Assembly: GCF_021129305.1 (NCBI RefSeq)
Contig: NZ_JAJOMB010000035.1
Span: 1-64,000 of the forward strand
Source: Kineosporia babensis
Lineage (GTDB): Bacteria; Actinomycetota; Actinomycetes; Actinomycetales; Kineosporiaceae
DNA length: 64,000 bases
Reading direction: 5' to 3'
Shown: positions 1,657 through 27,721 of the stretch, piece after piece
Layout: the number at the start of each line of letters is the position of its first letter
How positions within the stretch are numbered: position 1 is the first letter of the stretch
Notes under the pieces: generated by a model
The model's database searches: none
What the model was told of the DNA's origin: nothing
What the model saw: only the letters and a program-made list of their open reading frames with translations
Position numbers and translations under genes: made by a program

Positions 1657-3913
1657 GTGAGCGCTTCACCGACGTCCGCCGGAGGTGTCGCTGACGGAGC
1701 CGGACGCTGGGCGTGGCCGGTCGAGGTGGACCGTTATGACCGGTCCGCTGCCCTGCGGCCGGCCGAGGTAAGGGGCGTAGAGGACCTCGGGGTGCACAAT
1801 CTGCGGCGCCTGCAGCACCACGACCCGCACGCACCCGACTGGCGAAAGATCGCTCGCCTGCTGGCACCGCTGGAGGCAGTCAACGCTGCCCTGGACTCGC
1901 CAGCGACCACGCACCGACGTCGAGCCATGCTCGACACGGTCGCTCTTCTGCTGACTCACTGCGCCGAGACCGGCCGCACCTTCTGGGCCTGGACCGGCGA
2001 GGAGTGGATCCATCTGCTCGGCCGCGACCAGATCCAGTTCCACCGGCATTCACCCGCGTGGGCGGGCGACGAGGTTCGGCCCTATCTCGCCGCTCATGCC
2101 TACCTGCTGGGCTCTTTCACTGATTTCCACAAACTGGGCAGCTTCCAACGCCTAACCTTGTCCCGGCGGATCTTCGGACGTGCCCGAGTAGACGAGGAGA
2201 TAACCCGCATCCGCGCCGTTCTCGGCGCCTGGGGATACCAATTGGGCCGCCCCGAGGACACCTTGCTGCCGATGGTCGCCTGCCAGGTGTTCCTCCTCAA
2301 TCGCAGCCCATACTGCGAGGATCTCGATACGGATCTGTTCGACCGCATCCGCGAGAACCGCATGCTGCAGGGGCCTCAACTCAACACTCTCCATGCGCTG
2401 CAGCGGGCCGTTGCCGATCTCGGGTTCTGCGATCCTCCTCAGCAGCGCACCGGCCGCCAGAATGCCCGGGCCAGTGGCGGAGCCAGGGTCTGGGAACAAT
2501 GGGTCGATCGCTGGCACGACACCTCCACACTCACCCCGGGCGTTCGTGGCGACTTCCGCTGCACCCTGCTGCGAGTGGGCCGGTGGATCGCGGCCGAACA
2601 TCCCGAAGCCGGGGACCCAAGCGACTGGACCCGCCAGACCTGCGCGACCTGGATCGCCGCGCTCGACCGGATGAACGTCGGCGACTACGTCCAGCGCACC
2701 GTCGGGCTCAAGGACCGTCTGGGCAAACCTCTGGAAGCTGCCACGAAGGCCGGTCAGATCACCGCGCTGCGCACGTTCTTCCGTGACTGTCAGGAATGGG
2801 ATTGGCTGCCGCAACGTTTCGATCCTCAACGCGCCCTTGCCGTTCCCCGCACCATCGCGGCATTACTTGGCCCCGACCCGCGGATCATCGCCGACGAGAT
2901 CTGGGCGAAACTCCTGTGGGCCGGTCTGAACCTCAGCGCTGAGGATCTCCCGCAGACCCAGGCCGGACACTTCTACCCCTTCGAACTGGTCCGTGCACTC
3001 ACCCTTACCTGGCTGTTCTCAGGCCAGAGAAGCAACGAGATCTCCCGCCTGAGAACGGGCTGCATCCGCTGGCAGCATCAGGACGCCACCATCGATAGCA
3101 CCTCGGATCATCCTCGGCCAGGCCATCGACGCATGGCAGTCCCTGCGACCGGCCCAGCCGAAGTTCACCGATCGCCGAACCGGGGAACGCGTAGATCTGC
3201 TGTTCGCCGTTCGTGCCCAGCGTGTTTCGACCAGCTACATCAACAATACGGTCATCCCGATGCTCTGCCGCAAGGCGGGAGTCCCGCCCGCCGATATTCG
3301 TGGCAGCATCACCAGCCACCGCGCCCGCTCAACCATCGCCAGCCAGCTCTACAACGCCAAGGAACCGATGACCTTGTTCGAGCTTCAGGCGTGGCTCGGG
3401 CACCGATCGCCGCAGTCCTCCCAGTACTACGCGAAGATCACCCCGAACACACTCTCCAAAGCCTACAGCGAAGCAGGGTATTTCGAGCGGAACGTTCGCA
3501 CCGTCGAAGTCCTCATCGATCGCGACAAGGTCGCCTCGGGCGCCGCTGCCGACGGTGACCCCTGGCAGCACTACGACCTCGGCCACGGATACTGCACCTA
3601 CACCTTCTTCGAACAGTGCCAGCACCGTATGGCCTGCGCCCGCTGCGACTTCTACACCCCGAAAGAATCAACGAAAGCCCAACTCCTGGAAGCCAAAGGA
3701 AATCTCCAGAGGATGGCCGTCTCGATCTCGCTGACTGATGACGAGCACGCGGCCGTCACCGACGGACAGAGCGCGCTCGATCGTCTCCTGACCAGACTCG
3801 CCGATATCCCCACCCCGGCCGGCCCCACTCCGAGCCAGTTGAGCCAGACACCGAGCACGGCTCGGCTCTTACCGATCGCCGCAGTCCGACAGGGCAAAGC
3901 GGCACACACTTGA
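1657..3913 (+). pseudogene. Large Tn554-type tyrosine recombinase, frameshifted
   Basis: The N-terminal frame begins at GTG 1657 and is collinear with a large site-specific recombinase up to about 3100, including the first catalytic Arg context (FSGQRSNEISRLRTG). The frame then shifts: the expected continuation (ILGQAIDAWQSLRP...) is in the next frame, with the HRAR box, the LGHRS box, the Tyr in SQYYAKI and a Cys-rich tail (YCTYTFFEQCQHRMACARC) ending at 3913. Related proteins have residues between these parts that are missing here, so a small deletion plus frameshift near 3095-3115 is likely. The Cys-rich tail is typical of the third recombinase of Tn554-like elements. Probably non-functional. 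Confidence 0.7.
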
Positions 3914-5475
3914 CAATCGAGATTCCACAGATTGATGCGGGTGTTGTGGCCTTCGACAGGGCCGCTGGAGTAGGGCAGGGACAGTCCTGCGCGCACGGCG
4001 TCGTAGTCGGTGAGCAGGCCACGGGCGAAGGACTTCAGCTCGGGTTGATCGGTGGTGACGTTCACCTGCGCGAGCCAGGTGTTCAGATTTCGGTCGCCGG
4101 TGCGTCTGGTCATCATCTCGGCGAAGCCGCGGACATGCTGGGCCAGGGGTAGGCAGTTCTCCAAGAGGTGATTCAGGCCGACTTTTTCGTCAGCGTCGAG
4201 GTCATCGGGGCGAGTGCACAACCGCCGAGTCAGTTCGCGCACGGTCAATGGTTTGCGGGCTGGACTGGCGGACGGTGTCTCGATGCGCCAGGGCTGGAGA
4301 TACTTGCGCAGGGCGTTGCCTTGTCCTCGGTAGCCTCGTGCGCGGAGCAGGCCCAGGAGGACGGCGGCGTTCGTGATGCCCGAAGTCCATTGCTGGCGGA
4401 GGAAGTCACGGTGCTGGTCGAGTTCTCGTCCACGGCCGGCTCGGTGACCGCGATACAGCTCCTCAGGTCGGGCGGCTCGCGCGAACACCCTGACCGTGCC
4501 CCGCGACAGGCCGGTACGGCGCATGATCTCCCGGAGCGAGAGCTTCTGATCCAGAAGGTCATGCACGACGTGCCACCGTTCTTGATGGCGCGCATCGAGA
4601 CCGGTCACGGGGCCTGCATTGACGACATTGAGCGTTGTTGGCTCACCGGGCTCCGCTGGGTATGCCCCGGGCTCATCAACGCCCTGCTCATGTGGAAGGT
4701 GTTCTTCTGAAATGTGTTTCCAGGAACTGCGCAGCCGTTTGACCGCCTTCTCGACGTGGCCAGCGAGGTTGTGCCAAAGGTGCCACCGGTCAGCCACCTG
4801 TACTGCGTCGGGGATCGCATCCCGCGTGGCCTGGGCATATGCACCGGCACGATCGCGACAGACGACGTGAACGTCGTTGCCGTGCTCGTGCAACCAGGTG
4901 GTGAGCGTCTCGGAGTCTCGGCCGGCGGGGAGATCGAGCGGGCGACGCGTGTCGAGGTCGATCAGGACAGTGCCGTAGTTGTGCCCTCGGCGCAGCGCGA
5001 AGTCGTCTACTCCCAAGATGCGTAAACCCCTTTCGGGAGAATCCGGGTCGGGCAGCCGTCGAACGATGCGCACCAGCGTGTCCCGCTCGACGGGCAACCC
5101 GAGACCGCTGGCCAGGCGGGCTCCTGCCCGGCCGGCCAGGACCAGGGCGATCTGAGCCAGCATGGCTCCGGCCAGGACCGTTCGGCGCGCGTGGCGGTGA
5201 GTCACCTCGGGGATCTGCTCGCTGAACGTGGCCTGCGGACAAGAAACGTTCTCACAGCGGAATCGGCGCACCTGCAGCCTGATGGTCGCCGTCCGGCCGG
5301 ACATCGGAGCATCCATCAGTGTCCGCCGGTAGCGGCCGTGGACGCGGACTGAACTGGCTCCGCAGCGATGACAGACGGCCTCACAAGTGCGGCTTTCGGC
5401 TCGCAGGGTCACGCTCGAACTGGCGGAACTGGCTACAGTCAGACGCAACTGAGTCAGGTGGGCGGAACCTGTCAA
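3652..5475 (-). pseudogene. ISL3-family transposase, damaged at both ends
   Basis: The frame encodes an ISL3 transposase: an N-terminal zinc-finger-like region (CHRCG ... FRCENVSCPQ), a DDE core (GVDDFALRRG, VVCRDRAGAY, YSSGPVEGHNTRI) and an inserted helix-turn-helix (LSLREIMRRTGLSRGTV). After NTRI, near 3935, the expected C-terminus is replaced by readthrough antisense to the neighbouring recombinase, so the true 3' end and terminal repeat are lost. At the 5' end only a TTG start is available at 5475, and the first few residues normally before LTQLRL are missing next to the IS3-family element. An inactive remnant is likely. Confidence 0.75.
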
Positions 5476-5488
5476 CCTGTTTGAGACA

Positions 5489-6499
5489 CTACGCTGCCGA
5501 GGTCTTATGTAGATCCTGGTCGGATTCGATGGTCGATGGTGGCTTGTTGATCCAGGTCTTGGCCGGGAGGCCTGGTGCGGTGGGCCGACGGCGGAAACGC
5601 TCAGGGTGCTGGTCGTAGGCTTGGTTGAGGATCTTCTGACGGTGGTCGCGGGCGTCTTTCCAGGTGCCGTCGTGGACGGAGGCGGGCGTGTAGAGACCGA
5701 TGCCGGAGTGGCGGTGCTCGTTGTTGTAGTAGCGGAAGAAGATGGTGAGGAAGATCTGAGCGTCGCCGAGGCCTGTGAAGAACTCGGGAAACGCCGGGCA
5801 ATACTTCAGGGTCTTGAAAGCTGATTCGCTGTAGGGATTGTCGTTCGACGTGTGGGGTCGGGACAACGACCGGTTGACGCGTAGATCGGCCAGGAGGTCC
5901 GCGACGTCCTTGCTGGTCATCGAGGTCCCGTTGTCGGAGTGCACGGTGTGTGGCATCACCCCGCCGTTGCGCTCGATCGCATGGTTGATGAATTCTGCTG
6001 CCAAGGGTCTGGTTTCGGTTGAATGGACCTCCCAGTGGATGACCTTGCGTGAGTAGATGTCGAGAACGACGTACAGGTCGAGGTAAACGCCCTTGGTAGC
6101 CGTCTTGAGTTTCGTGATGTCCCAGGACCAGACCTGGTCTGGTCCTGTGGCCACGAGCTCGGGCCTGGTCCGGGGTGGATGGCGCGCCTGGGCTCGGCGT
6201 TCGATGACCTGGTCGGCGTCGCGCAGGACGCGGTAGAACGTGGAAATGCTTCCGAGATAGGTTCCTTCGTCGATGAGGACGGCCCATGCCTGGGAGGCGG
6301 ACTTGTCGGCGAACCGGTCGCTGTCGAGTTCATGAAGGATCCGGGCTCGTTCCCCGTCGCTCAGCGCGGCCGGCTGGACGCCTCCTCCGGGCGCACGGGG
6401 CGGCCCCAGGACCGGCGGGCGCTGGCGCCGGTAGTGCGTGGCCCGGGCCACGCCCAGGAGCCGGCAGGCCGCCTGGGTCGAAGAGTTCGCCGCGACCAC
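5489..6499 (-). CDS. IS3-family transposase OrfB (DDE catalytic subunit)
   Basis: This 336-residue protein has an N-terminal HTH-like IS3 region (QAACRLLGVARATHYRR) followed by an rve integrase core. The catalytic acids are visible as Asp in WSWDITKLKT, Asp in HSDNGTSMT and Glu in NPYSESAFKTLKY. The frame is open upstream of the GTG at 6499 and overlaps the end of orfA, the usual IS3 arrangement in which programmed frameshifting makes the OrfAB transposase. The length is normal for the family and no internal break is seen, so it could be active. Confidence 0.88.
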   Translation of the reverse strand: MVAANSSTQAACRLLGVARATHYRRQRPPVLGPPRAPGGGVQPAALSDGERARILHELDSDRFADKSASQAWAVLIDEGTYLGSISTFYRVLRDADQVIERRAQARHPPRTRPELVATGPDQVWSWDITKLKTATKGVYLDLYVVLDIYSRKVIHWEVHSTETRPLAAEFINHAIERNGGVMPHTVHSDNGTSMTSKDVADLLADLRVNRSLSRPHTSNDNPYSESAFKTLKYCPAFPEFFTGLGDAQIFLTIFFRYYNNEHRHSGIGLYTPASVHDGTWKDARDHRQKILNQAYDQHPERFRRRPTAPGLPAKTWINKPPSTIESDQDLHKTSAA

Positions 6500-7721: not shown

Positions 7722-8722
7722 TGCTGTACCGCCCGGGCGGCGGGTCCTCGCCCCGGCGTGCAGCGCTGCCGCAGCGCTGGCTCGCGTTCTTAGGCGTCGC
7801 GCTCGCGGTCTGCATCGTCATCATGATCCTGGCGAAGGGGATCGCCTCCAACTCCGATTCAGACAATGAACAGCTGTCGGGCAGTTCCCCGGTAAACGAG
7901 TCACAGGACTCGACCTTGACGGCGGAGGACGGTCTACCGGCAACTGACACCACGCAGTGGTCGATGGATGCGAGCAGTACCGCAGCGTCGGTATTGGTCG
8001 GCCCTGAGGTTCAGAGAGCTCGTGATGAAGTTGCCGCACGGGCGATGCCGGAGGCCGGTACCGGTCGCGCGTACGGCCGGGCGGAACCACCCACGGTGGC
8101 GATCCCACCCTCGATCGACCTGCCGCAAGCCCAGGATGTGGACGAGGTGGGCGTGGCCACGGGTTTCCCAGCCACGCAGGAGGGCGCCGTGGCACAGTTG
8201 GCGGCCATCGCGAGCGCCGCCGCAGACTCCTCTTCGCTGCCAGGGGTGGAGCGAGTTCGGCAGGGATGGGTGGCATCGGGTGGCCCGGGTGTAGGGGAGT
8301 GGACCTGGAGGTCCACGATGGCGCACCTTCTGACCACCATGGATGCGCCACTCGTGGGCTCGCCGGGTGTGAGAGTGAGCGGGCGTCCGGTGATGGGGCT
8401 GGTGAAGGACACCGGGGGACAGGAGGTCGGTGCGGGGTGGGCTGTGGTGTGTGTGAACGTCGCGCTGCACGTGCAGGTGAACGGTGCCGGCCATGATGGG
8501 GTGGTGGCTGACTGTCAGCGGATGCTGTGGGACGGTCGGCGGTGGCTGATCGGGCCGGGCGCTGTTCCTGCGCAGTTGGTGTCTCAGCCGGAGCCGGGCA
8601 CGGATGCTGCGTATGCGGCGGGCTTTCGTGATCTAACGGCGGAACCCCATACTGCCGGGCGCAGTTCGGGTTCTGCTGGAACCGAACTCCAGGGAGCGGC
8701 TCCGGAGCGGGGAAAGTCATGA
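7721..8722 (+). CDS. Single-pass membrane protein, paralogue of the 30517 gene
   Basis: The protein has a short cytoplasmic N-terminus, one TM helix at about residues 17-39 (LAFLGVALAVCIVIMILA), a Ser/Thr-rich linker and an extracytoplasmic domain. The domain has a GVATGFPATQEGAVAQLAAI block and a closing AAYAAGFRDL block. Both recur in the protein at 30517-31347 (GVATGYPQSPEGAVAQLAAI, AYAAGYRML), so the two are paralogues. It overlaps the next gene by 4 bp (ATGA), indicating an operon with the LysM-BTAD and DUF2637 proteins. GTG 7718 is an alternative start. The role is unknown; association with a Tad-like or conjugation-like envelope apparatus is inferred from the paralogue's location. Confidence 0.75.
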   Translation: MLYRPGGGSSPRRAALPQRWLAFLGVALAVCIVIMILAKGIASNSDSDNEQLSGSSPVNESQDSTLTAEDGLPATDTTQWSMDASSTAASVLVGPEVQRARDEVAARAMPEAGTGRAYGRAEPPTVAIPPSIDLPQAQDVDEVGVATGFPATQEGAVAQLAAIASAAADSSSLPGVERVRQGWVASGGPGVGEWTWRSTMAHLLTTMDAPLVGSPGVRVSGRPVMGLVKDTGGQEVGAGWAVVCVNVALHVQVNGAGHDGVVADCQRMLWDGRRWLIGPGAVPAQLVSQPEPGTDAAYAAGFRDLTAEPHTAGRSSGSAGTELQGAAPERGKS

Positions 8723-11604
8723 GTCCCGTCCCCAGCGGCTTGCACAGGCCCTCACCGCGCTACGGGCAGCCATCCTCAGGGCTTCCGCAAGCCCAGACGA
8801 TCATGCTGCATGCCAGGGCAGCGGGCGCCGGGCTCATCCTGCTGGCCATCGTGGCCGGAATCCCTACCATTCTGATCGTTTTCGGTGCCGGTCCTGTCCA
8901 CACACTGACCTATGTCCGGGATGTTGTCGCAGGCGGACAGTACGTGTGGTTGCTCCTGGCCGCTCCGAGCATGCTGGTGTGGCTCTGGTGGATGTGGGCC
9001 GTCGCAGCCATCGTTCGGGAAATCAGGCGCATGCGGGGCCAACTCATCCAAGGACGGCAGTCCAAGCGTCCACCGGAAGGACCCGCATCGGTCAGCGACG
9101 GGCAGGACACAGGACCAGGACGCTGGTGGATCCGTCTCTTGGTCACCACCGTCGCCCTCGCCCCGATCAGTCTCCCGGCCACAGCGCTCGCCGCTCCGAG
9201 CGCCAGCACCGCTCCCGCCGTCGTCGAGTCGTCCTCCACACCGGCAACCACCGAAATGGCATCGGCACCGTCGCGGTCCGCAGACACCAACCCTCCGCCA
9301 TCGACCTCCCCGGCTTCCCGCGAGGCGCTGACCGGATCTGAAGAAGAGAAAGAGCTGCCTGCAGTGCGGGCCGTCGTCGTGCAACCACGCGGGTCCGGCA
9401 CCACGTTGTGGGGACTGGCCAGCACCTACCTGGGAGACGGCACGCGCTGGAACGAGATCTGGGCCTTGAACGAGGGACGCCGGCAGAACGACGGAACCAC
9501 CATGCAGACCCCGTCCTTCCTGCGACCGGGCTGGACGATCCTGATCCCCGGCCCTGATCAGCAGATCCCCGCCCGCACAAAGACCGATTCCCCACACCCG
9601 GAACAGGACCCCACCGCCCATCGGGTGCGCTACACCATCGCCGCCGGTGACCGCCTCGCGGACATCGCCGACCGTTTCCTCGGCGACCCTCACACCTACC
9701 CGCGCCTGCACGCCCTCAACCAGGGCGAGGTCACGGACGCCGACCACATCGAGACCGGCGCCACGATCTGGCTCCCCGAACAGACCCACGACCGCGGCAC
9801 CCGCCGCCACGCCCGCGGAATCGCGTCACCGCAGGTCGAGGACGAGACGTCACGCACGACCACCTCCGATCGGAAGAACCGACACGGCGAGCGAGGTGAT
9901 GACGTGACGACGTCGCCGCAACGACCCCGGCCGTCTACCGAGGCGAGCGCACCCCGCCCGCAACCGGTCACGCCATCGCCGAGCACCTCGTCCTCTGCTC
10001 CTGACACCCGACCTGGCCCCACCAGCCCACCCGCAACCCCGACACCCGAGCGCAGCGCACCAGCCAGCAGCACGACCAGCACCGGTGGCTCGTGGCAATG
10101 GATCCTCGGACTCGGCGGAGGGATACTTGCGATCCTTCTCCTGCGACGCAGCCGGACCCGCCGCAACGACTGGACCCGCAACCGCCCGCCGCATCAGCGC
10201 CGCGGCACGGGCAGCGATGAAGGCCAGTCGATCACCGAGCCCGAGGGCGACCACGAACTCGACACTGTCCAGACCCTCGGAAGCCTCACATCCGTTCAGC
10301 AGGAACAGCTCTCGACCGACAGCGCGAACGACCTACGACGCCCGGCGATCGACCAGGCGCGCGTCGCCATCCATCGGATGGCGCAGGAAACCTTCGCATC
10401 CAGAACAACTCCCAGCAGTCCCGACCACCAGACAGAGCTTGCCCCCAACCCTGCCGCTGGTCAGCTCATACCCGAACGCGAACCGGACGTGCCCGCTGCC
10501 ACCCACCACCAAGGTCAGGCCGAGCCTGCATTACACCCCAGCCCATCCCGCGCAACCCCGCCGCTGCCTGCAGTCGCCAGCACGGCGGCACCCTCCCAGG
10601 AACCGCTACGCGTTCCTCACCTCCTGCCCCTTCCCGACAACCACCAGGATCATCCCCAGATCCTGAGCCGGCCCACCTCGGTCAACGGCACCCATCGGCG
10701 AGCACGACACCGAGCAGAACCACCCACTGAGCACCCCACCCCCCAGGTTCGCGCCGCCTCACCGCCGCAACCAGACCGCGATAGACCACCTGGCACGCTC
10801 GAGCACGCCGCACCCGGCGCGGTCGGCCAACCACAGCCCGCGGTCAGCAACAGTCTCACCGCAGCAGCCAGTGAGCCCCAGCGCGCTCTGGCCGCCCCCG
10901 AAACGCACGAAGAGAACTGGGAGAGCAGACCACCGAAGGACCAGACGAGCGCGCTGCCGTTGCAGTCTGCGCAAATCCGTCTCTTCGGCACCCCCGCCGT
11001 CCTCGACAGCACCGGCGCACCCGTCACCGGGCTACGCCGACAAGCCCTCGCCCTGCTCCTGTACCTGGTCCTGCACCCCGACGGCGGTGCCACCGACCAA
11101 CTCCAAGAAGCCCTCTGGCCCGACGCCACCCTCGCCAGCGCCAAAAAACGATTCTCGACCGAACTGTCCAACCTACGACGGACCATGCGCACCGCCGCCG
11201 GCGTCCACGACCAAAGCTTCGACGCGGTCCCCGCCGACCGAGGCCACTACCGACTCCTGCCCAGCCTCGACATCGACGTCTGGACCTTCACCCGCGAACT
11301 CGCCCTCGCCCGCACCGACCCCGAGCACCGCGAACAACACCTGCGTCGCGCCCTCACCGCCCAGAACGGACACCTCGCCGACGACGGCACCACCGGCTAC
11401 CCCTGGCTCACCCCACACCGCAACCATTTCCGCCGCGAACGAGCCCGCGCCAAACGTGCGCTCGCCGACCTCATCCAGGCCGAACACCCCCACGAAGCCC
11501 GCGCCCTCATCACCCAAGCCGAACAAGCCGAAACCGGCCTACCCCCAGCCGCCCACACCAAGATCACGCCAGTCAGCCCCACCGGCCCAAGGACCACCCC
11601 ATGA
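8719..11604 (+). CDS. Multi-pass membrane protein with two LysM domains and a C-terminal BTAD regulator domain
   Basis: This 961-residue protein has TM helices near residues 34-57, 75-100 and 136-160. Two LysM-like peptidoglycan-binding segments follow (about 224-285, TTLWGLASTYLGDGTRWNEI; and 300-350, RYTIAAGDRLADIADRFLG). A further TM helix lies at about 458-478 (WILGLGGGILAILLL), then a long Pro/Ser-rich linker. The C-terminal part (about 753-935) is a winged-helix plus BTAD-like region (IRLFGTPAVLD ... LTGLRRQALALLLYL is similar to SARP/AfsR output domains). The layout suggests wall-binding outside and a DNA- or protein-binding output inside, so a transmembrane sensor or regulator is plausible. 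It overlaps both neighbours by 4 bp. The 865-residue protein at 39713 shares the TM-linker-BTAD plan. Confidence 0.8.
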   Translation: MSPVPSGLHRPSPRYGQPSSGLPQAQTIMLHARAAGAGLILLAIVAGIPTILIVFGAGPVHTLTYVRDVVAGGQYVWLLLAAPSMLVWLWWMWAVAAIVREIRRMRGQLIQGRQSKRPPEGPASVSDGQDTGPGRWWIRLLVTTVALAPISLPATALAAPSASTAPAVVESSSTPATTEMASAPSRSADTNPPPSTSPASREALTGSEEEKELPAVRAVVVQPRGSGTTLWGLASTYLGDGTRWNEIWALNEGRRQNDGTTMQTPSFLRPGWTILIPGPDQQIPARTKTDSPHPEQDPTAHRVRYTIAAGDRLADIADRFLGDPHTYPRLHALNQGEVTDADHIETGATIWLPEQTHDRGTRRHARGIASPQVEDETSRTTTSDRKNRHGERGDDVTTSPQRPRPSTEASAPRPQPVTPSPSTSSSAPDTRPGPTSPPATPTPERSAPASSTTSTGGSWQWILGLGGGILAILLLRRSRTRRNDWTRNRPPHQRRGTGSDEGQSITEPEGDHELDTVQTLGSLTSVQQEQLSTDSANDLRRPAIDQARVAIHRMAQETFASRTTPSSPDHQTELAPNPAAGQLIPEREPDVPAATHHQGQAEPALHPSPSRATPPLPAVASTAAPSQEPLRVPHLLPLPDNHQDHPQILSRPTSVNGTHRRARHRAEPPTEHPTPQVRAASPPQPDRDRPPGTLEHAAPGAVGQPQPAVSNSLTAAASEPQRALAAPETHEENWESRPPKDQTSALPLQSAQIRLFGTPAVLDSTGAPVTGLRRQALALLLYLVLHPDGGATDQLQEALWPDATLASAKKRFSTELSNLRRTMRTAAGVHDQSFDAVPADRGHYRLLPSLDIDVWTFTRELALARTDPEHREQHLRRALTAQNGHLADDGTTGYPWLTPHRNHFRRERARAKRALADLIQAEHPHEARALITQAEQAETGLPPAAHTKITPVSPTGPRTTP

Positions 11605-16039: not shown

Positions 16040-17257
16040 GTGGTTGCTACCGCCTCAGCATCAACTAACCCCAGTGCCGATGAACTACGTGCGGAGATGG
16101 TCTCTGTCATGGTGGACAAGGGACTGGCACGCTCGCCCGAGGTCATCGAGGCGTTGAAGGCGGTCCCGCGGCATCTGGTGAAGGGCGTGGACCCCGAGCT
16201 CGTCTATGACCCCTACAAGGCAGCGGTGACGAAGCCCGGTCGGGACGGCGTTAACCTCAGCTCGGTCTCAGCGGCCTACATCCAGGCGACGCAGTTGGAA
16301 CAGGCGCAGGTCGAGAAGGGGCATCGCGTTCTCGAAATCGGATCGGGTGGCGTCAACGCCGCCTACCTCGCAGAGTTGGTGGGTCCAGCCGGTCAGGTAG
16401 TGACGATGGACATCGACTCGGACGTGACCACCCGGGCCACGGAGTTCCTTAAGAGCAACGGCTATGAGCAAGTGACCGTGCTGACAGGCGACGCTGGTTT
16501 CGGAGCCCAGGAGTTTGCTCCGTTCGACCGCATCGTGGTCACGGTTGAGACCACCGATATTGCCGAGGCGTGGTGGGATCAACTCAGCGATGACGGCATC
16601 ATCGTGGCGCCGATGCGGTGGCAGAGTCAGCGCCGAAGCGTGGCGCTTGTCCGCCAGACGAAGGACACGCTCGTCGCGGACAACATCGCGCAGGCCGGCT
16701 TCGTACCGCTGCAGGGGATCGGCGAGGAACGAGAGACCGTCATCGCCTTGCTCGACGACGCCCAGCAGCGGGCCACTCTACGCGTCGAGGACAGCACCCT
16801 CGTCGATGCTGAGGCCCTGACCCAAGCTATCCAGTCGGACGCTACCCATGTCTGGACCGGAGTAAACCTTCCGCAGGAACCGCGGTTCGCGCCACTGGAC
16901 CTATGGCTGGCCACTCTCCTGAACACCGTCGTCCTGACGGGCACCGCCGGGGCGCACGAGGCCCCCGATATTCCTCAGCCGTCGCCGATCGGCAGGCCCA
17001 CGCTGGTCGAGGGCTCCAGCATGGCTTATAGGACCCTGCGTCCCAACGGCTCCGAGTGGGAACTCGGCGTCATTGGGTACGGGCCGGCCGCCTCGGACCT
17101 GGCCGAGCGCTACGCGGAAGCGATCCGATCGTGGAGCCCACAGCGCCGGCCCCAGCTGACCGTTACCCGTAACCCGTCGCCGACGCCTGTTACGACCGGG
17201 CTCGCGAGCCGCAGCGTGCAGCGGCGCAACAGCACGCTCACGATCGCCTGGTCGTAG
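16040..17257 (+). CDS. FxLD-system methyltransferase (PIMT-like, SAM-dependent)
   Basis: The protein resembles protein L-isoaspartate O-methyltransferases. Near residue 97 it has the SAM-binding motif VLEIGSGGVNAAYLAELVG, then the acidic motif VTMDIDS and a post-motif VLTGDAGFG. A further ~180 C-terminal residues are typical of the methyltransferases of FxLD lanthipeptide clusters. GTG 16040 is chosen (405 aa) because AGGAG sits 5 bp upstream; the ATG at 16019 has no ribosome binding site. The precursor gene starts 66 bp downstream. PIMT homologues in RiPP clusters methylate an Asp side chain, giving aspartimide or isoaspartate; the Asp26-Gly27 step of the precursor is the likely target here. 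Confidence 0.85.
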   Translation: MVATASASTNPSADELRAEMVSVMVDKGLARSPEVIEALKAVPRHLVKGVDPELVYDPYKAAVTKPGRDGVNLSSVSAAYIQATQLEQAQVEKGHRVLEIGSGGVNAAYLAELVGPAGQVVTMDIDSDVTTRATEFLKSNGYEQVTVLTGDAGFGAQEFAPFDRIVVTVETTDIAEAWWDQLSDDGIIVAPMRWQSQRRSVALVRQTKDTLVADNIAQAGFVPLQGIGEERETVIALLDDAQQRATLRVEDSTLVDAEALTQAIQSDATHVWTGVNLPQEPRFAPLDLWLATLLNTVVLTGTAGAHEAPDIPQPSPIGRPTLVEGSSMAYRTLRPNGSEWELGVIGYGPAASDLAERYAEAIRSWSPQRRPQLTVTRNPSPTPVTTGLASRSVQRRNSTLTIAWS

Positions 17258-17274
17258 ACCCTCGGGGGTCTACG
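17253..17274 (+). terminator. Hairpin at the methyltransferase stop codon
   Basis: A perfect 9-bp stem (CGTAGACCC / GGGTCTACG) with a 4-base loop overlaps the TAG stop of the methyltransferase. No U-tract follows. It could be a weak terminator or an RNA processing or stability element that sets precursor mRNA level apart from the enzyme mRNA. Confidence 0.5.
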
Positions 17275-17323
17275 AGCAGGAGCACCAAAGAAAACAGATC
17301 CCAACCATCAGGAGGTACACACC

Positions 17324-17449
17324 ATGGAGGACTTCGACCTCGACATCACCACCGTCGCGTCCGCGCCGCGGTCGCCGGACCTGCTCAACAGCACCGACGA
17401 CGGTTGCGGGGAGACCCCCGACCCGGCCGGTGTGAACGGCCTGCTCTGA
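17324..17449 (+). CDS. FxLD-family lanthipeptide precursor (41 aa)
   Basis: This small gene encodes 41 residues starting at ATG 17324, with GGAGG 8 bp upstream. The leader has the defining FDLD motif at residues 4-7. The core region (about 20-41) contains the segment TDDGCGET at 24-31. Possible modification residues are Ser23, Thr24 and Thr31, with Cys28 as the only cysteine, so at most one (methyl)lanthionine ring can form. Asp26-Gly27 is a likely site for the PIMT-like methyltransferase. Other members of the family that I know of usually have more cysteines, so this core looks minimal. It sits between the methyltransferase and LanB genes, each side bounded by a hairpin. Confidence 0.85.
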   Translation: MEDFDLDITTVASAPRSPDLLNSTDDGCGETPDPAGVNGLL

Positions 17450-17458
17450 TCTGAACAC

Positions 17459-17492
17459 GCCGGGGCCACGGGCTCACGCTCGTGGCCCCGGC
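17459..17492 (+). terminator. Strong hairpin (attenuator) between precursor and LanB genes
   Basis: A perfect 12-bp GC-rich stem (GCCGGGGCCACG / CGTGGCCCCGGC) with a 10-base loop starts 9 bp after the precursor stop and ends 18 bp before the LanB start. Partial terminators at this position are usual in lanthipeptide operons, where they keep precursor mRNA in excess of enzyme mRNA. No U-run follows, so the efficiency is uncertain. Confidence 0.75.
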
Positions 17493-17510
17493 CGGGCAGA
17501 AGGATGCGCC

Positions 17511-20500
17511 ATGACATATCTCTGCACAGGATTAGGGCAACTGCGATCGGCGAGAATGCCTCTGTCCGAGCCGTTCCCGGTGCCCCCTTCCGAGGACGCC
17601 GACACGAGGGCCTGGCTGCGGTGGTTGGATGGCCTGTGGCGTGTGCCCCTGCTGGCCGAAGCCATTGGTGCGGCCAGCCCGGATCTCACCCGTGCCATCG
17701 AAGGTCTGCTGAGTAATGATCGGCCCTCCCTCCAGGAAACCCGGCGGGTGAGCAGCGCGGCCCTGCACTATGCGCTGCGTGCGTGGTATCGGGCGACGCC
17801 CTTCGGGCTGTTCTCCGCGACGGGCCCGCTCGCGGTGGGGGAGACGTGCTCCACCCCTTCGGACGTCACCGAGACGGTGGTGGCTCGCGCTGACGCTCGA
17901 TGGCTGGCCGCTTGCATGGACCGGCTGCATGCCAATCCCGATGTTCTCGAGGGTCTCATCGTGGTGGCGGAGCCCACGCACCAGATCAGCCAGGGGCAGG
18001 TCCGGGTTCCCTACCGGCCCGGCGCCGTCGGACCTCACCAGGTCACGGCGACCGCCACGGCCGCGCTCGGCGAGTTGTTGGCCACGGCTGCTCGCCCGAT
18101 ACCGGTAGCCCAGGTGACGAACCAGCTTCTGGCCCTGCATCCTGATGTCCCCCGTGACCGGGTGCTGGCGCTCATCTCTGCCGCACTCCGCAACGGCTTT
18201 CTGCATTCCAACCTGCGTCCCTCCAGCCTGATCGGCTTCCCCCTGACGCACATCCGCACAGTTCTAGAAAGAACAACCGCGGGATCCCGGAACCAGGACC
18301 CGACAGCGCTCGGGCTGATCAAGATCGACAAGGCCCTGACCCGGGCCCGCCAGTCACCGCCGCGGGAACGGCTGGCAGGCTTCGCTCACAGTGCTGGCCC
18401 CACGGCCGAGCTGGTTGACGTGGGTGTTCCTCCTCTGATGTTCGACGTCCGCCAACAGGAACCGGTCGTCGTTCCCCACCGGCTGATTCAGGACGTCGCT
18501 GAAGCCTTGGACATCATGGCCCGAACCAGCGCACACCCGCAGGGCCCGCCGGCGTGGAAGGACTACCGGACCAGATTCTTCGAAAAGTTTTCTCTCGGGC
18601 AGCTGGTCCCGATCCGCGACGTTATCGACCCGGTGATCGGCCTCGGGTACCCGGCCGGATTCCTCGGCTCTACGTGGGTCGCTCGAGACGAGACATTGAC
18701 CGCACGGGACGCCTACCTGCTCGGTCGCGCCCAGCGCCTGATGATCGCAAGATCGGGAGAGCTCGCGCTGACCAGCGACGACATCGCAGCACTCGATCAC
18801 CAATGCCAGGGGCACATCTTGCCCGGGACAGATGTGACGGTGGCGGTCCAAGCCGAAAGCGCCCGAGATGTCGAGCAGGGCAAGTATGACGTGGTCATCG
18901 AAGGGATCGGATCGGCAGCCGGTGCTCTGTCCGGCCGGTTCCTTCCACTCGGCAATCAGAGCGAGCGCGAACAAGCTGCCGCCATGCACCGTGCCATGCC
19001 TACCCTGGACGACGAGGCGGTTCGGGTGCAGCTGTGCTCGCCCCCACTGCGGTGGCGGGCCCAAAACGTCGCCCGCACAGTGCACCTCGTTCCTGAAGTA
19101 CTGGCCCTCGGCGAGCACACCGAGCACACAACCATGTGGCTTGACGAGATCGCCGTGGCCGCTACCCCCGATCAGCTGTACCTCGTGCATCTGCCCAGTC
19201 AGCGCCGCATCGAACCGTTCATGCCTCACTCGGTCGATCTGAAGGACGCGACAGACCCTCTCGCCCGATTCCTTGTCGAACTGCCCCGCTCGCATGTGCC
19301 GGTCCTGAACCCGTTCGACTGGGGCGCGGCCTTCAACCTGCCGTATCTACCCCGTGTTCGGACTGGCCGCGTCATCCTGCGACCATCACGCTGGCGTCTT
19401 ACCGCTGCCGACCTTGCGGGCGAATATGACCCGGATCAGACGATTCAGAGGTGGCGCCAGCAGTGGCGAGTCCCGGCCGTCGTTCAAGCCGGTGAAACAG
19501 ACCGCCGCTTACGCCTGGATCTTGAACAGCCCGCCTTCCGGCGGGAGCTGGCCACCCTGGTTCGCCAGCGCGGCTCAATCCATGTTCAGGAAGCTGCGCC
19601 CGACACTGCCCATGGATGGCTTGGCCGAGTTGGGCAGCTCACTCTGCCGTTTGCCGCGCAGCAGCCACATTCACCGCGACGCAACCGTCCGCCAGCGCCC
19701 GTGCTCAGGCGGGCCACCGATGCCCAACGACCCGGTACAGCTCGTACTGTTCTGCTGAGGGTTGAAACAGGCATCAGCCCCGCCATCGACGTTCTCACCG
19801 CCGGCCTGAGAGACCTGCTCGACGGCGACTCCCGGGTTGAGCGCTGGTGGTTTACTCGCTACCGCGATCCCCGCCAGCACCTGCGCATCAGGATCACTCT
19901 GACCGCAGCGCATCACTTCGGCCAGATCGCCACGCTGATCGCGACCTGGGCGGCTCGCGCACACCACGAGCGACTGGTCGGTGATATCTCATGGCATACC
20001 GACCAGCCCGAGACAGGCCGGTACGGAAGCGGTGACACCCTGCAGGCGGCCGAAGCCTTCTTCGCGGCCGACTCCCGTGCCGCCCTTGCCCAGAACACCC
20101 CAGGACACGACCCCCACGAACGCCAAGCCCTGCTGATGGCCAGCCTGCTCGACATCACCCACCACCTCGTCGGTGACTACTCCCAGGCGATACGTCTCTG
20201 GGAGGACGGCGGGCTCCGAGGCGTCGCAGGCGGAATCGATCGCAAGACCCGGACTCTCGCCTTAAAACTTGGATCCCCGGAACAGGAGCAGCGCTTCGGC
20301 GCTCTGATCGGCGCCCCCAACCTGACCCGCAGCTGGAACCAGCGGGAAGGCGCCCTGAAGGGTTACCGCACGGCCCTTCGCAGCGCTGGCCGCCTCCCCG
20401 AGCACGTGCTGCCGGCACTCGTGCACCTGCACCACGTGCGGGCCTACGGCCTGGACTCCGCTCATGAGGACCACACCCAGCGTTGCGCCCGCGAGATCGC

Positions 20501-20543
20501 ACATTCTCTGCTGGCCCGAGCCCGAAAGACGGTGACAGCATGA
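17511..20543 (+). CDS. lanB: Full-length lantibiotic dehydratase LanB
   Basis: This 1010-residue cytoplasmic enzyme has the length and both domains of class I LanB proteins. The N-terminal glutamylation domain carries the RATPFGLFSATG signature near residues 94-106; the family uses glutamyl-tRNA to activate Ser/Thr. The C-terminal elimination (SpaB_C) domain begins near residue 744 (RVETGISPAIDVL ... WWFTRYRDPRQHLRIR) and forms dehydroalanine or dehydrobutyrine. The ATG has GAAGGA upstream. The 3' end overlaps LanC by 4 bp. The substrate is inferred to be the adjacent 41-residue precursor. Confidence 0.92.
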   Translation: MTYLCTGLGQLRSARMPLSEPFPVPPSEDADTRAWLRWLDGLWRVPLLAEAIGAASPDLTRAIEGLLSNDRPSLQETRRVSSAALHYALRAWYRATPFGLFSATGPLAVGETCSTPSDVTETVVARADARWLAACMDRLHANPDVLEGLIVVAEPTHQISQGQVRVPYRPGAVGPHQVTATATAALGELLATAARPIPVAQVTNQLLALHPDVPRDRVLALISAALRNGFLHSNLRPSSLIGFPLTHIRTVLERTTAGSRNQDPTALGLIKIDKALTRARQSPPRERLAGFAHSAGPTAELVDVGVPPLMFDVRQQEPVVVPHRLIQDVAEALDIMARTSAHPQGPPAWKDYRTRFFEKFSLGQLVPIRDVIDPVIGLGYPAGFLGSTWVARDETLTARDAYLLGRAQRLMIARSGELALTSDDIAALDHQCQGHILPGTDVTVAVQAESARDVEQGKYDVVIEGIGSAAGALSGRFLPLGNQSEREQAAAMHRAMPTLDDEAVRVQLCSPPLRWRAQNVARTVHLVPEVLALGEHTEHTTMWLDEIAVAATPDQLYLVHLPSQRRIEPFMPHSVDLKDATDPLARFLVELPRSHVPVLNPFDWGAAFNLPYLPRVRTGRVILRPSRWRLTAADLAGEYDPDQTIQRWRQQWRVPAVVQAGETDRRLRLDLEQPAFRRELATLVRQRGSIHVQEAAPDTAHGWLGRVGQLTLPFAAQQPHSPRRNRPPAPVLRRATDAQRPGTARTVLLRVETGISPAIDVLTAGLRDLLDGDSRVERWWFTRYRDPRQHLRIRITLTAAHHFGQIATLIATWAARAHHERLVGDISWHTDQPETGRYGSGDTLQAAEAFFAADSRAALAQNTPGHDPHERQALLMASLLDITHHLVGDYSQAIRLWEDGGLRGVAGGIDRKTRTLALKLGSPEQEQRFGALIGAPNLTRSWNQREGALKGYRTALRSAGRLPEHVLPALVHLHHVRAYGLDSAHEDHTQRCAREIAHSLLARARKTVTA

Positions 20544-21616
20544 GCAGCGCCACCTGGCCGAGCCACCCGCAGTCCCTGGCACGGGGAGACCTCGGTGCCG
20601 CGCTCACCCTGGCGATCGAAGCGCACGCCGATCCCGCGGCCCGCCGGAAGCTGCACCACCATCTGAACCGTTTGGGACCGGTCGTAGATGGTGAAGACGC
20701 CGGACTCTTCTACGGCGCCCCCGCCCTCGCATTCGTGCTGCACATGGCCCAAGGCGCCTATCAGAACGCGATCAAGCATCTGGACGAGGTCAACGAACGA
20801 GTGACCCGAACGCGTCTTGCGGCAGCGCACCGGCGCATCGACCGCGGCGAACTGGCGGCCTTTACCGAGTACGACGTGTTCCGTGGACTGGCCGGCCTGG
20901 CCCTCCTGTGGCTCCAGCGGGGCTCCCGGCCAACCCTCCTTGAGGAGATCCTGACCTACCTCGTACGTCTGACCCAACCGGCCGCGGACGGCCAGACCGG
21001 TTGGCGCGTCTGGCATCGCCGAGATGCCTTCACCACGTTCGGCCCTCACACGAACAACGGCCTTGCACACGGCATCTGCGGCCCCTTGGCAGTATTGGCC
21101 TTGGCTTGGATCAAAGGAATCAAGGTAACGGGCCACGAAGACGCCATCGCACGTATCATGGAACATCTCGACGCCGTGCAACAGACCAACGGTGTGACCT
21201 GTTGGTGGGACCGGTGGGACACCGAATGCCGTACGTCGCCACCTCCGCTTTCATGGTGCTACGGCACCCCGGGGATCGCCCGCGCGCAACAGTTGGCTGG
21301 CCTGGCGCTCGACGACTGCGGCCGGCGCAGCACGGTGGAACAGGCAATTCTGCAGCAGATCTCTGCGCCGAACCCCGCAGGGACCGGAGGCTCCACGATT
21401 TGCCACGGAACCGCCGGCGTCTTGAGGGCCTGCGAGCACATTGCGCATGACGCAGCGAACCCTGACCTGTTCCGTGACCATATCGACGCTCTGCGCAGCC
21501 GGCTCGCTGTCCTCCCCGTCCCGGCGGTGCCCGGGCTTATTGACGGAAGCGCTGGCGTTCGACTTGCGACCCAAGGCAAAGCGCTGCCGTGGGACGCCTG
21601 TCTGGCCCTGGTCTGA
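20540..21616 (+). CDS. lanC: Lanthionine synthetase C (cyclase)
   Basis: This 358-residue LanC-type cyclase has the family's Gly-rich repeats (NGLAHGICGPLAVLAL near 173, WCYGTPGIARAQQLAG near 239, CHGTAGVLRACEHI near 288). The three zinc ligands are visible as Cys240, Cys288 and His289, so it should be active in adding Cys28 of the precursor to a dehydrated Ser/Thr. ATG 20540 overlaps the LanB stop (ATGA), indicating translational coupling; the longer frame from 20483 has no support. Confidence 0.92.
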   Translation: MSSATWPSHPQSLARGDLGAALTLAIEAHADPAARRKLHHHLNRLGPVVDGEDAGLFYGAPALAFVLHMAQGAYQNAIKHLDEVNERVTRTRLAAAHRRIDRGELAAFTEYDVFRGLAGLALLWLQRGSRPTLLEEILTYLVRLTQPAADGQTGWRVWHRRDAFTTFGPHTNNGLAHGICGPLAVLALAWIKGIKVTGHEDAIARIMEHLDAVQQTNGVTCWWDRWDTECRTSPPPLSWCYGTPGIARAQQLAGLALDDCGRRSTVEQAILQQISAPNPAGTGGSTICHGTAGVLRACEHIAHDAANPDLFRDHIDALRSRLAVLPVPAVPGLIDGSAGVRLATQGKALPWDACLALV

Positions 21617-21623
21617 TCGGGAG

Positions 21624-22472
21624 ATGGCGATGGACGGCAATGACCTTGACGAAGCGCAGATCGCTGCTGTGGAGGCGCCTTCCACAACCTGGCTGCAGCT
21701 GAACATCGAGTTTGCCCAGAGCTCGCGGGCCGACGAGATCGCCGCCCAGCATCTATTGCCTGTGCTCCAGCAGGCTCACCAGCGTGGTGATCTGACATGG
21801 TGGTTCATGCGCAAGCCGCCGGGATGGCGAGTGCGGATGCTCCGGGTGTCTTCCGAGCTGGAGGAGTTCGTCGCGGTGCGGACCGCACTGGAGCGAGCAC
21901 GCACCAACGGTGTGGTCTCACGCTGGTGGCTGTCGATCTATGAAGAGGAGACCACGGCGTTCGGCGGGCCGCTCGGCATGACCCTTGCACACGACGTGTT
22001 CGTCGCCGACAGCACCGGGATCGCCCATCTGCTCACCGAGCGGCCCTTCGGAAAAGATGTACCCGATCGGCGCCTACTGTCGTTGATCTTGATGACGCAC
22101 CTACAGCGCGCTGCAGGACTGGACCGATATGAACGAGGCGACGTCTGGGCCAAGGTGGCAGCGCAGCGCCCTACCCCCGACTTGGCACCCGAGACACGGA
22201 AAACGCTTATAGAGAAAGCCCGGGCACTACTCACCACCGACACAGCCGCCGTCACCTGTGAGAGTGGTCCGTTCAGTGCTGTCTCTGGCTGGGCTCAAGA
22301 TCTTGCGGCCGTAGGCGCCGAACTCGGGGCGAGCGCCCAGCAGGGGTCAATGGCGCGCGGGCTGCGCTCTGTACTAGCTCTGCACGTACTGTTCCACTGG
22401 AATCGGATCGGAATAAGCGTTAACCAGCAGTCAGTTTGGGCGACCGTCTCCAGAGATGCGCTCATTGGCTGA
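21624..22472 (+). CDS. Thiopeptide-type bacteriocin biosynthesis protein (stand-alone SpaB_C)
   Basis: This 282-residue protein belongs to the SpaB_C/thiopeptide-type family. The conserved block WLQLNIEFAQSSRADEIAAQ is followed by WWFMRKPPGWRVRMLR and later LLSLILMTHLQRAAGLDRYERGDVW. It starts 7 bp after the LanC stop at ATG 21624. In FxLD clusters this extra elimination-type protein accompanies a LanB that already has its own C-terminal elimination domain, so its separate role is unclear; a second elimination or a partner function is inferred. It is the last gene before a terminator. Confidence 0.85.
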   Translation: MAMDGNDLDEAQIAAVEAPSTTWLQLNIEFAQSSRADEIAAQHLLPVLQQAHQRGDLTWWFMRKPPGWRVRMLRVSSELEEFVAVRTALERARTNGVVSRWWLSIYEEETTAFGGPLGMTLAHDVFVADSTGIAHLLTERPFGKDVPDRRLLSLILMTHLQRAAGLDRYERGDVWAKVAAQRPTPDLAPETRKTLIEKARALLTTDTAAVTCESGPFSAVSGWAQDLAAVGAELGASAQQGSMARGLRSVLALHVLFHWNRIGISVNQQSVWATVSRDALIG

Positions 22473-23764: not shown

Positions 23765-24604
23765 ATGGGGGATAAGCCGCAATCCAAACGGAGTGTTCGA
23801 CGTTCGCTGGCCCGTCAGGTCCGCGCACTGCGAGAGGCCGCCGGCCTCTCGCACAGGGATCTCGCCGATGCTGGCGCTGGGTCCGTATCGAAATGGAAGA
23901 GAATCGAAAAGGCTGAGACACGGCCCAGCCCCGGAGACATCCTGCACCTGTGTCGCATCATCGGTGCCGACGAAGAGACGACGGCGAACCTCGAAGCCAT
24001 GGCCAAGCAGGATGAGCAGGTCACATGGTACGTCGACCTGGCCAAGGGCCTACCCAACGATCGGGCCTTCTTCACTCTGCTCGAGCTCGAAGCGTTCGCC
24101 ACCAGCATCGACATCTTCGGTCCAATGCTAGTTCCCGGGTTGGTCCAGTCTCACCGCTACCAGGTCGCGCAGTTCCAGACCGCGCCGGACGGGTTCGACG
24201 AGGAGACCATCAACAGGCAGGTGGCTGTTCGCACCAGGCGCCAAGAAGCGATGGCTTCGGCCGACCTGTGCGTTGTCGTCGGAGAAGAAGTGCTCCACCG
24301 GCAGGTGGGCGGGCCAGAAGGTATGGAAGAGCAGATCGCCTACCTACGCCAACTGAACGCACTCCCGAATGTCGACATCCGAGTGCTGCCGTTCTCGGTC
24401 GGTGCGCACCCCGGTGGCAAGGGCGAGTTCGCTCTGCTGGGCTTCTCGGAAGAGTCGCAAGAGCCGGACGTGCTGCATACGGACGGGTACCTGGCGGCGC
24501 AATACTCTGCGGACACCGAGCCGGTGCGGAACGCGCGCCGTCGGTTCGCCATCATCAAGGCGAAGTCCGTACCGATTGAGGAGCATCTGCAATGCGTGAC
24601 ATGA
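23765..24604 (+). CDS. XRE regulator with DUF5753 domain
   Basis: This 279-residue protein has an N-terminal XRE domain (about 12-65; RSLARQVRALREAAGLSHRDLAD has the usual helix pattern) and a C-terminal DUF5753 domain (about 95-270; MLVPGLVQSHRYQ, VAVRTRRQEAM, LPNVDIRVLPFSVGAHPG, VLHTDGYL). These proteins are paired with DUF397 proteins in actinomycetes and have been discussed as regulator or toxin-antitoxin-like pairs. The downstream DUF397 gene overlaps by 13 bp. A leaderless promoter is likely. Confidence 0.88.
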   Translation: MGDKPQSKRSVRRSLARQVRALREAAGLSHRDLADAGAGSVSKWKRIEKAETRPSPGDILHLCRIIGADEETTANLEAMAKQDEQVTWYVDLAKGLPNDRAFFTLLELEAFATSIDIFGPMLVPGLVQSHRYQVAQFQTAPDGFDEETINRQVAVRTRRQEAMASADLCVVVGEEVLHRQVGGPEGMEEQIAYLRQLNALPNVDIRVLPFSVGAHPGGKGEFALLGFSEESQEPDVLHTDGYLAAQYSADTEPVRNARRRFAIIKAKSVPIEEHLQCVT

Positions 24605-24801
24605 AGATCGACTTCGTGAAGGCATCCGCCAGTGCGGATACCAATCAATGCGTGGAGATGGGGCTGACCAGGGACGACACCGTCTTGGTGCGCGACTCCA
24701 AGCAGCACGGGCGGGGCCCTGTTCTAGAAGTCGCCCAGGGTGGGATCGGTGTCTGGGTAGCGGGGGCGAAGAACGGCGAGTTCGACGCTTTGCTCGACTG
24801 A
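24592..24801 (+). CDS. DUF397 protein
   Basis: This 69-residue protein has the DUF397 layout: an N-terminal FVKASAS block, NQCVEMG, then VLVRDSKQHGRGPVLEVAQG and a terminal GAKNGEFDAL. It overlaps the DUF5753 regulator by 13 bp in another frame, so the two are co-translated. Small acidic partner of the regulator; its biochemical role is unknown. Confidence 0.85.
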   Translation: MRDMKIDFVKASASADTNQCVEMGLTRDDTVLVRDSKQHGRGPVLEVAQGGIGVWVAGAKNGEFDALLD

Positions 24802-27184: not shown

Positions 27185-27721
27185 ATGAGCAACCGCGTTC
27201 TCTACCTCATCGTCTGCGCTGCACCCCCAGCGCGGAGCATCACCGAGCTGATCGACCTCCTCCACGCCGACAGCTGGAATGTCCACGTCATCGCGACCCC
27301 GAGCGCAATGGAGTGGATCCCCGTCAGCACGGTCGAAGCGCAGACCGGCCACCCTGTCTCCCACCGACCGCGCCGTCCCGATGAAGCTCGCAGCCTCCCG
27401 AAGGCTGACGCCGTCGTGGTGGCGCCGGCGACGTTCAACACCATCAACCAGTGGGCCAACGGCACTAACGACACCCTGGCCCTCGGGATCCTCAACGAAG
27501 TGCTCGGGATTCGTCTGCCGGTCATCGCGACTGTCTACGCAAAGCCCAGCCTGACATCGCACCCCGCGTTCGCGACACACATCGGCCTTCTCACCGGCGC
27601 CGGCGTGATCTTCACCGAAACCGAATCCTTGCGGCCGACAGACCCCAGCCACCCCTTCGAGTGGCGTACCGTCACCGAACTTCTCGCATCGTTCGCCGAC
27701 CCGGGGGCCAGGGAGCACTGA
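27185..27721 (+). CDS. Flavoprotein (HFCD/PPC-decarboxylase-like)
   Basis: This 178-residue protein belongs to the flavoprotein superfamily that includes phosphopantothenoylcysteine decarboxylase and the LanD enzymes EpiD/MrsD. The Rossmann start (VLYLIVCAAPPARSITELID) and the conserved block VVVAPATFNTINQWANGTNDTLALGIL are visible; the latter corresponds to the PxxxNT...K-A-G..D region of HFCD enzymes. The classical active-site His is not clear. In actinomycetes this type of gene often sits beside XRE-TPR regulators, as here. A role in the FxLD pathway is not suggested, because the precursor lacks a C-terminal cysteine. Confidence 0.82.
   Translation: MSNRVLYLIVCAAPPARSITELIDLLHADSWNVHVIATPSAMEWIPVSTVEAQTGHPVSHRPRRPDEARSLPKADAVVVAPATFNTINQWANGTNDTLALGILNEVLGIRLPVIATVYAKPSLTSHPAFATHIGLLTGAGVIFTETESLRPTDPSHPFEWRTVTELLASFADPGAREH

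Follow-up and report, generated by a model that had tools for sequence, protein, structure and literature searches.

What does a lanthipeptide gene cluster make when its precursor peptide carries a single cysteine? The question is raised by a stretch of 64,000 nt from Kineosporia babensis (assembly GCF_021129305.1, contig NZ_JAJOMB010000035.1, positions 1–64,000; hereafter the window), which contains five genes on the forward strand, head to tail, contiguous and intact, for a methyltransferase, a short precursor, the dehydratase LanB, the cyclase LanC and a stand-alone SpaB_C protein (coordinates in Table 1). We consider, with a probability of about 0.68, that they represent a working class I pathway of the FxLD type that has been reduced to one ring and would yield a one-ring lanthimiditide.

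The initial annotation had described an intact five-gene FxLD cluster, and both the gene coordinates and the curated models bear this out: the precursor, MEDFDLDITTVASAPRSPDLLNSTDDGCGETPDPAGVNGLL, reaches 38.1 bits against TIGR04363 (cut-off 30; model positions 1–30 of 37), and the adjacent methyltransferase exceeds the cut-off of 320 of TIGR04364 ("methyltransferase, FxLD system") with 381.4 bits, which places the precursor in the FxLD family. For comparison, an alignment of five methyltransferase rows was searched against the genomes of 84,980 species, and the best 80 of 449 relatives, corresponding to 79 loci, were analyzed. Residues Ser74, Ser77, Glu99 and Gly101 of the methyltransferase are identical in 79 of 79 relatives. 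LanB carries both Pfam dehydratase domains, Lant_dehydr_N and Lant_dehydr_C, and matches MibB (5ehk) at E 8e-52 and NisB at E 5e-17; its residues R90, R94 and R837 align with NisB and recur unchanged in 64, 64 and 66, respectively, of the 68 relatives compared, the remainder being gapped at these positions. Likewise, the WCYG and CHG motifs of LanC align with NisC, with Cys240 identical in 65 and Cys288-His289 in 64 of 68 relatives and gaps in the remainder. From NisB and NisC, we take these LanB and LanC motifs to be catalytic or zinc-binding. The locus has, then, the enzymes that characterize class I lanthipeptides, a full LanB with glutamylation and elimination domains and a LanC with zinc-site motifs. 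The SpaB_C protein has a tblastn match at 65 of the 79 methyltransferase loci, and the accessible portion of PMC7268733 describes class I clusters with stand-alone elimination-domain proteins and methyltransferases of this kind.

The only cysteine of the precursor, Cys28, sits in the sequence T24-D-D-G-C28, so that, as the initial annotation had proposed, at most one internal thioether ring is possible. A quick methyltransferase tree, with support from SH-aLRT (Shimodaira-Hasegawa-like approximate likelihood ratio test) values only and a long-branch warning on the window sequence, placed the window within a Kineosporia group (support 100) that is joined by Myceligenerans indicum (99) inside a clade of 42 rows (100); among the best 80 of 449 relatives, Kineosporia mesophila, with 60% identity, has the nearest methyltransferase of any named genome. 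The clusters of this sister clade (Myceligenerans, Streptomyces and kin; for instance those of M. indicum and of the Streptomyces globosus plasmid NZ_CP030864.1) share with the window the gene order, the FxLD leader, the TxD[GN]C motif and a strong hairpin between the precursor gene and lanB. They differ in the precursor core, which has four cysteines in 36 of 36 readable sister precursors (the window's own excluded; one further precursor, at locus L298, is cut by a contig end and was unusable) and one in the window. Since the tree nests the window among four-cysteine relatives, its single cysteine appears to be a derived state.

Leader, first ring (ring A) and tail of the window precursor align without gaps with the four-cysteine sisters, which allowed the differences to be followed residue by residue. 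After TxD[GN]C, all 36 sisters show the pattern C-x3-C-x3-C-x4-C; in the window, cysteines 2, 3 and 4 are replaced by Pro, Gly and Leu, and three of the four invariant Ser/Thr residues of the tail are also replaced by Pro, Gly and Leu, while one Thr and the invariant Ala and Asn are kept. Mean identity of the window to the 36 sisters is 64% (54–73%) up to Cys28 and 26% (23–31%) after it; compared with Myceligenerans alone, the values are 62% for leader plus ring A and 23% for the tail, whereas Myceligenerans itself shares 60 and 81%, respectively, with the other 35 sisters. Likewise, the window retains 8 of the 8 columns invariant in the sisters up to Cys28 versus 3 of 9 after it (hypergeometric p about 0.007). 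This conservation of the leader and the first ring, together with the replacement of tail cysteines and Ser/Thr residues, points to the loss of rings B–D through substitution, with retention of ring A and of the Asp that LanSA is expected to target. The initial annotation had thus rightly seen an intact and unusual one-ring FxLD cluster, and had missed that the ring kept is the one bearing the expected target Asp and that the others were lost residue by residue. It had also anticipated an unusually small product, for which we found no support, because the tail is as long as that of the four-cysteine sisters up to their last cysteine; the predicted product would have fewer rings and, depending on the cleavage site, need not be shorter.

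A core with one cysteine is exceptional in the family, in agreement with the initial expectation that FxLD cores usually have more: at 239 of 239 other FxLD places there are two to five cysteines after the leader motif, and none has one. These places come from two sets, one of 110 (108 places in 394 genomes of the class and two that came from another search), with 19, 29, 59 and 3 places having two, three, four and five cysteines, and one of 129 (128 further places from 391 genomes of another order plus one more), with 7, 51, 69 and 2, respectively. About eight weak or short matches (L110, L111, L253–L258) are counted among the 239 although they are probably not precursors, and three matches with E 0.02–0.09 (L003–L005) were left out. 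The window precursor falls below the at least two core cysteines that are usual in the family and that are not a stated condition of TIGR04363.

The 79 loci retrieved with the methyltransferase were screened with a custom precursor model built from 207 sequences, which gave 78 precursor-like matches at E < 1e-3: 62 with four cysteines, 11 with three, one with two, two with one and two with none. None of the low-cysteine candidates was comparable to the window peptide. The match at L298 was rejected as truncated, and two extra matches at L300 come from a damaged duplicate read in overlapping frames; L331 (E 0.0015, one cysteine) lacks TxDGC and a LanB, and L341 is cysteine-free, also without TxDGC and at a locus without LanB. 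Besides the window's, no intact single-cysteine TxDGC precursor was found among these loci from the best 80 of 449 methyltransferase places. L341 is an example of an FxLD cluster in decay; its methyltransferase (position 9284 onward) and that of L337, both from Actinopolyspora, are closely related, and L337 has a normal four-cysteine precursor. The accessible parts of the literature on FxLD lanthipeptides, on peptides with a single lanthionine or one ring and on lanthimiditides do not mention a single-cysteine FxLD core, and our literature search found no report linking Kineosporia with a lanthipeptide.

A pathway can be proposed from these features. LanB would bind the FDLD leader, which we infer to be its recognition element, and dehydrate Thr24; LanC would then add Cys28 onto Thr24 to form the one methyllanthionine ring. 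The LanSA methyltransferase, whose expected target is the Asp of the TxDGC ring, would subsequently methylate Asp26 within it, and the ester would collapse to an aspartimide with Gly27 that could hydrolyze, mostly to isoaspartate. An ancestral four-cysteine peptide would have lost rings B–D in the window lineage. Gene content, family membership, motifs, phylogenetic position and pattern of loss come from the present analysis; the chemistry, the order of the steps and the notion that all the enzymes still act on the window peptide are deduced by analogy with characterized relatives. The window combines a TXDGC core motif (T24-D-D-G-C28) with a PIMT homolog, and TXDGC is the core motif that the available sections of two reports assign to methyltransferase-associated (LanSA) class I lanthipeptides (PMC10787088, PMC13001092). 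For OlvA, the accessible text of PMC13001092 states that the methyltransferase acts only after OlvB and OlvC, with OlvSA needing a cyclized substrate, and that the Asp lies in the loop of the N-terminal methyllanthionine ring, its ester giving an aspartimide and then mostly isoaspartate.

Going by the accounts of it in PMC13001092 and PMC7268733, the OlvA/OlvSA lanthimiditide and the window are alike in having class I LanB and LanC with LanSA, and an Asp in the N-terminal methyllanthionine ring, which in the window is a predicted one. The modified peptide OlvA(BC) of Streptomyces olivaceus is reportedly multiply cyclized; unlike it, the window core would allow only one ring. Other systems with an aspartimide as the expected modification are the imiditides and pamtides, which are described, in the portions available of PMC13001092 and PMC10787088, as a PIMT homolog plus a precursor with no other ring-forming enzymes. 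They differ from the window, where LanB, LanC and SpaB_C are all present in full and the class-defining ring-forming enzymes are therefore not missing.

Several observations weigh against a working one-ring pathway. TIGR04363 leaves the C-terminal part of the precursor unmatched, and no second genome with a one-ring precursor was found in the best 80 of 449 related methyltransferase places. The other genomes of the same genus keep only methyltransferases, with no LanB found, which makes loss of the pathway in the genus a real possibility. The contrast in conservation between the two parts of the precursor is partly a selection effect, as it was the leader and ring A that led to the peptide, and Cys28 was chosen as the boundary with the alignment already in view. 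Additionally, the one-ring reading presupposes that LanB, LanC and LanSA accept a one-ring core.

The rest of the genome provides the background for the alternatives. The assembly (9.4 Mb in 89 contigs, 99.3% complete, 3.1% contamination) has a single TIGR04363 match, the window precursor, with no second FxLD precursor down to E ≤ 0.1; a better-fitting precursor elsewhere, which the initial annotation had set as a test of its proposal, was thus not found among peptides of FxLD type. There are three LanC-like loci, including the window's. On contig C18, at about 7769–12162 of L367, there is a second class I LanC-LanB pair, whose LanB is 31% identical to that of the window, with no recognized FxLD precursor nearby. 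L363, on contig C10, contains a disrupted second copy of this type of methyltransferase at about 8755–9469, split into two parts of 67 and 47% identity. Small open reading frames (ORFs) that combine an FxL[DNES] motif with a ribosome site were not seen in L367, L364 and L368, and L363 has an unconvincing one of 98 amino acids.

The main rival to a one-ring lanthimiditide is that the cluster is dying, with the core of the precursor already decaying and the enzymes yet to follow. The disrupted methyltransferase copy on C10 would fit with this, as would the other genomes of the genus, which retain at most the methyltransferase, and the existence elsewhere of a decayed FxLD precursor, the cysteine-free L341. 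Decay, however, should strike the leader and ring A as well as the tail, and they keep 8 of 8 invariant columns against 3 of 9; the reading frame and the length of the tail are preserved, and LanB, LanC, the methyltransferase and SpaB_C are full-length with their motifs, while the decayed L341 has lost the motif and is without LanB. We therefore consider decay unlikely, although it is the alternative to be taken most seriously. It is improbable that the cysteine engages in something other than an intramolecular ring, for instance by dimerizing through a disulfide or by linking to a second peptide through a thioether: it is a lone cysteine, and no sequence feature forces a ring, but its T-x-D-G-C spacing matches the motif that all 36 sisters share, LanC retains its zinc-site motifs and the genome yielded no further FxLD peptide.

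Two further explanations were considered. According to one, the true substrate is a non-FxLD precursor encoded elsewhere and the window peptide is a relic, for which the second LanB-LanC pair on C18 and a more distant FxLD-type methyltransferase on C23 (36% identity) could be invoked. Against this, the precursor lies between the methyltransferase gene and lanB, the same as in the sister clusters, and the stretches around C18 and C23 contain no small FxL[DNES] ORF with a ribosome site; a relic is thus very improbable. According to the other, a sequencing or assembly error masks a normal four-cysteine core, and this is a single copy in a draft genome. A frameshift or truncation was discarded, since the in-frame tail aligns without gaps with the sisters and the two other frames offer no cysteine-rich continuation, and the tail departs from that of Myceligenerans at 10 of its 13 positions (the other 3 being identical), too many for sequencing errors, which leaves such an error with hardly any likelihood. 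A functional one-ring pathway is, then, the reading that we favor.

As to LanB-less METHYLTRANSFERASES, a related methyltransferase is present in 6 of 13 genomes of the family, and a LanB match in two of the 13 (the window's own and G008). Within the genus, three methyltransferases with 59–61% identity, one from G002 and two from G004, occur without LanB; the enzyme of G005 is more distant (38%), only a fragment was found in G001, and G003 has none. The three close methyltransferase genes (L360, L361 and L362) are open and intact, with pairwise ratios of nonsynonymous to synonymous substitutions (dN/dS) of about 0.28–0.33 (dN 0.085–0.156, dS 0.288–0.520). No TIGR04363 precursor was detected at E ≤ 0.1 in any of the other five Kineosporia genomes, and none of the small ORFs near the methyltransferases of L360, L361 and L362 that combine a ribosome site with an FxL[DN] or DG motif was convincing as a precursor. 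Apparently, these LanB-less enzymes work on a substrate not recognized here, and they might be imiditide- or pamtide-like. Because intact methyltransferases persist without LanB or a recognized precursor, either the pathway decayed around a re-employed methyltransferase or the present substrate escapes the precursor model; lone enzymes are known, and the available part of PMC10787088 gives 70.2% of such methyltransferases as lacking an obvious partner among ribosomally synthesized and post-translationally modified peptides.

Tentatively, both patterns could have a common cause, with the window having lost all rings except the one that presents the Asp, the other Kineosporia genomes having kept, for a different substrate, only a methyltransferase under selection, and the aspartimide or isoaspartate, rather than the rings, being what is selected; we hold this joint scenario to be doubtful, though worth stating, for it would trace a natural path from lanthipeptides to methyltransferase-only, imiditide-like chemistry. 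For the FxLD family, which is large and functionally unexplained, the window suggests that selection keeps the leader and the aspartimide ring. A one-ring FxLD lanthimiditide would differ in ring number from the known multi-cysteine members. Additionally, a natural precursor with the Asp-bearing ring alone would make recognition by LanSA accessible without mutating a four-ring peptide, and a one-ring substrate of 41 residues would offer a handy, minimal means of introducing an aspartimide or isoaspartate.

Table 1. Positions of the cluster, of parts of the precursor and of related genes (window coordinates unless a locus is named).
Feature	Position	Strand	Basis or remark
FxLD-system methyltransferase (LanSA/PIMT-type), 405 aa, GTG start	16040..17257	+	TIGR04364, PF01135
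FxLD lanthipeptide precursor, 41 aa, one Cys (Cys28)	17324..17449	+	TIGR04363; AGGAGG ribosome site upstream; gapless alignment to sisters
FDLD leader motif	17333..17344	+	F, D, L identical in 36/36 sister precursors, last D in 14/36
T24-D-D-G-C28, predicted single methyllanthionine ring, target Asp26	17393..17407	+	T, D, C of TxD[GN]C identical in 36/36 sisters
Tail GETPDPAGVNGLL, region of rings B–D, all three Cys replaced	17408..17446	+	Column table versus 36 sisters
Hairpin in the gap from the precursor stop to the lanB start	17459..17492	+	15-bp stem
LanB, full-length class I dehydratase, 1010 aa	17511..20543	+	PF04738 498 bits, PF14028 115 bits
LanC cyclase, 358 aa, ATG at 20540 overlapping lanB stop	20540..21616	+	PF05147 123.9 bits
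Stand-alone SpaB_C (thiopeptide-type) protein	21624 or 21630..22472	+	TIGR03891 175.3 bits, PF14028 97.2 bits
XRE/DUF5753 regulator beside cluster, membership in system uncertain	23765..24604	+	85% identical to L362 counterpart
DUF397 partner of XRE regulator	24592..24801	+	69% identical to L362 counterpart
L360 methyltransferase, intact, LanB-less	8947-10158	+ (strand where methyltransferase reads +)	
L361 methyltransferase, intact, LanB-less	8754-9977	+ (strand where methyltransferase reads +)	
L362 methyltransferase, intact, LanB-less	8057-9262	+ (strand where methyltransferase reads +)	

The gap between the precursor gene and lanB (17450–17510) has a minimum free energy of -41.7 (z -5.0 versus 40 shuffles), and strong folding of this gap is common to the sister clusters: of the 65 such gaps that were folded, counting the window's own, 56 gave z < -2. 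The hairpin is perhaps a processing or attenuation signal, which might raise the output of the precursor over that of the enzymes. The flanks of 7 kb of the three closest Streptomyces plasmid relatives contain no annotated transporter or protease in a gene table that is incomplete; of two further relatives, one carries an amino acid permease in the vicinity and the other does not.

Downstream of the cluster, the XRE/DUF5753 and DUF397 genes have their counterparts in the regulators neighboring the L362 methyltransferase. An HFCD-type flavoprotein (PF02441, CoaBC-like; 27185–27721) is encoded about 4.7 kb past the end of the cluster and adjoins a helix-turn-helix protein. LanD enzymes use a C-terminal cysteine, and a link of this flavoprotein with the cluster is unlikely because the precursor does not have one. 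Upstream of the cluster, at 3652–6499, there are ISL3-type transposase and integrase-core genes, and the cluster may therefore belong to a mobile or accessory region.

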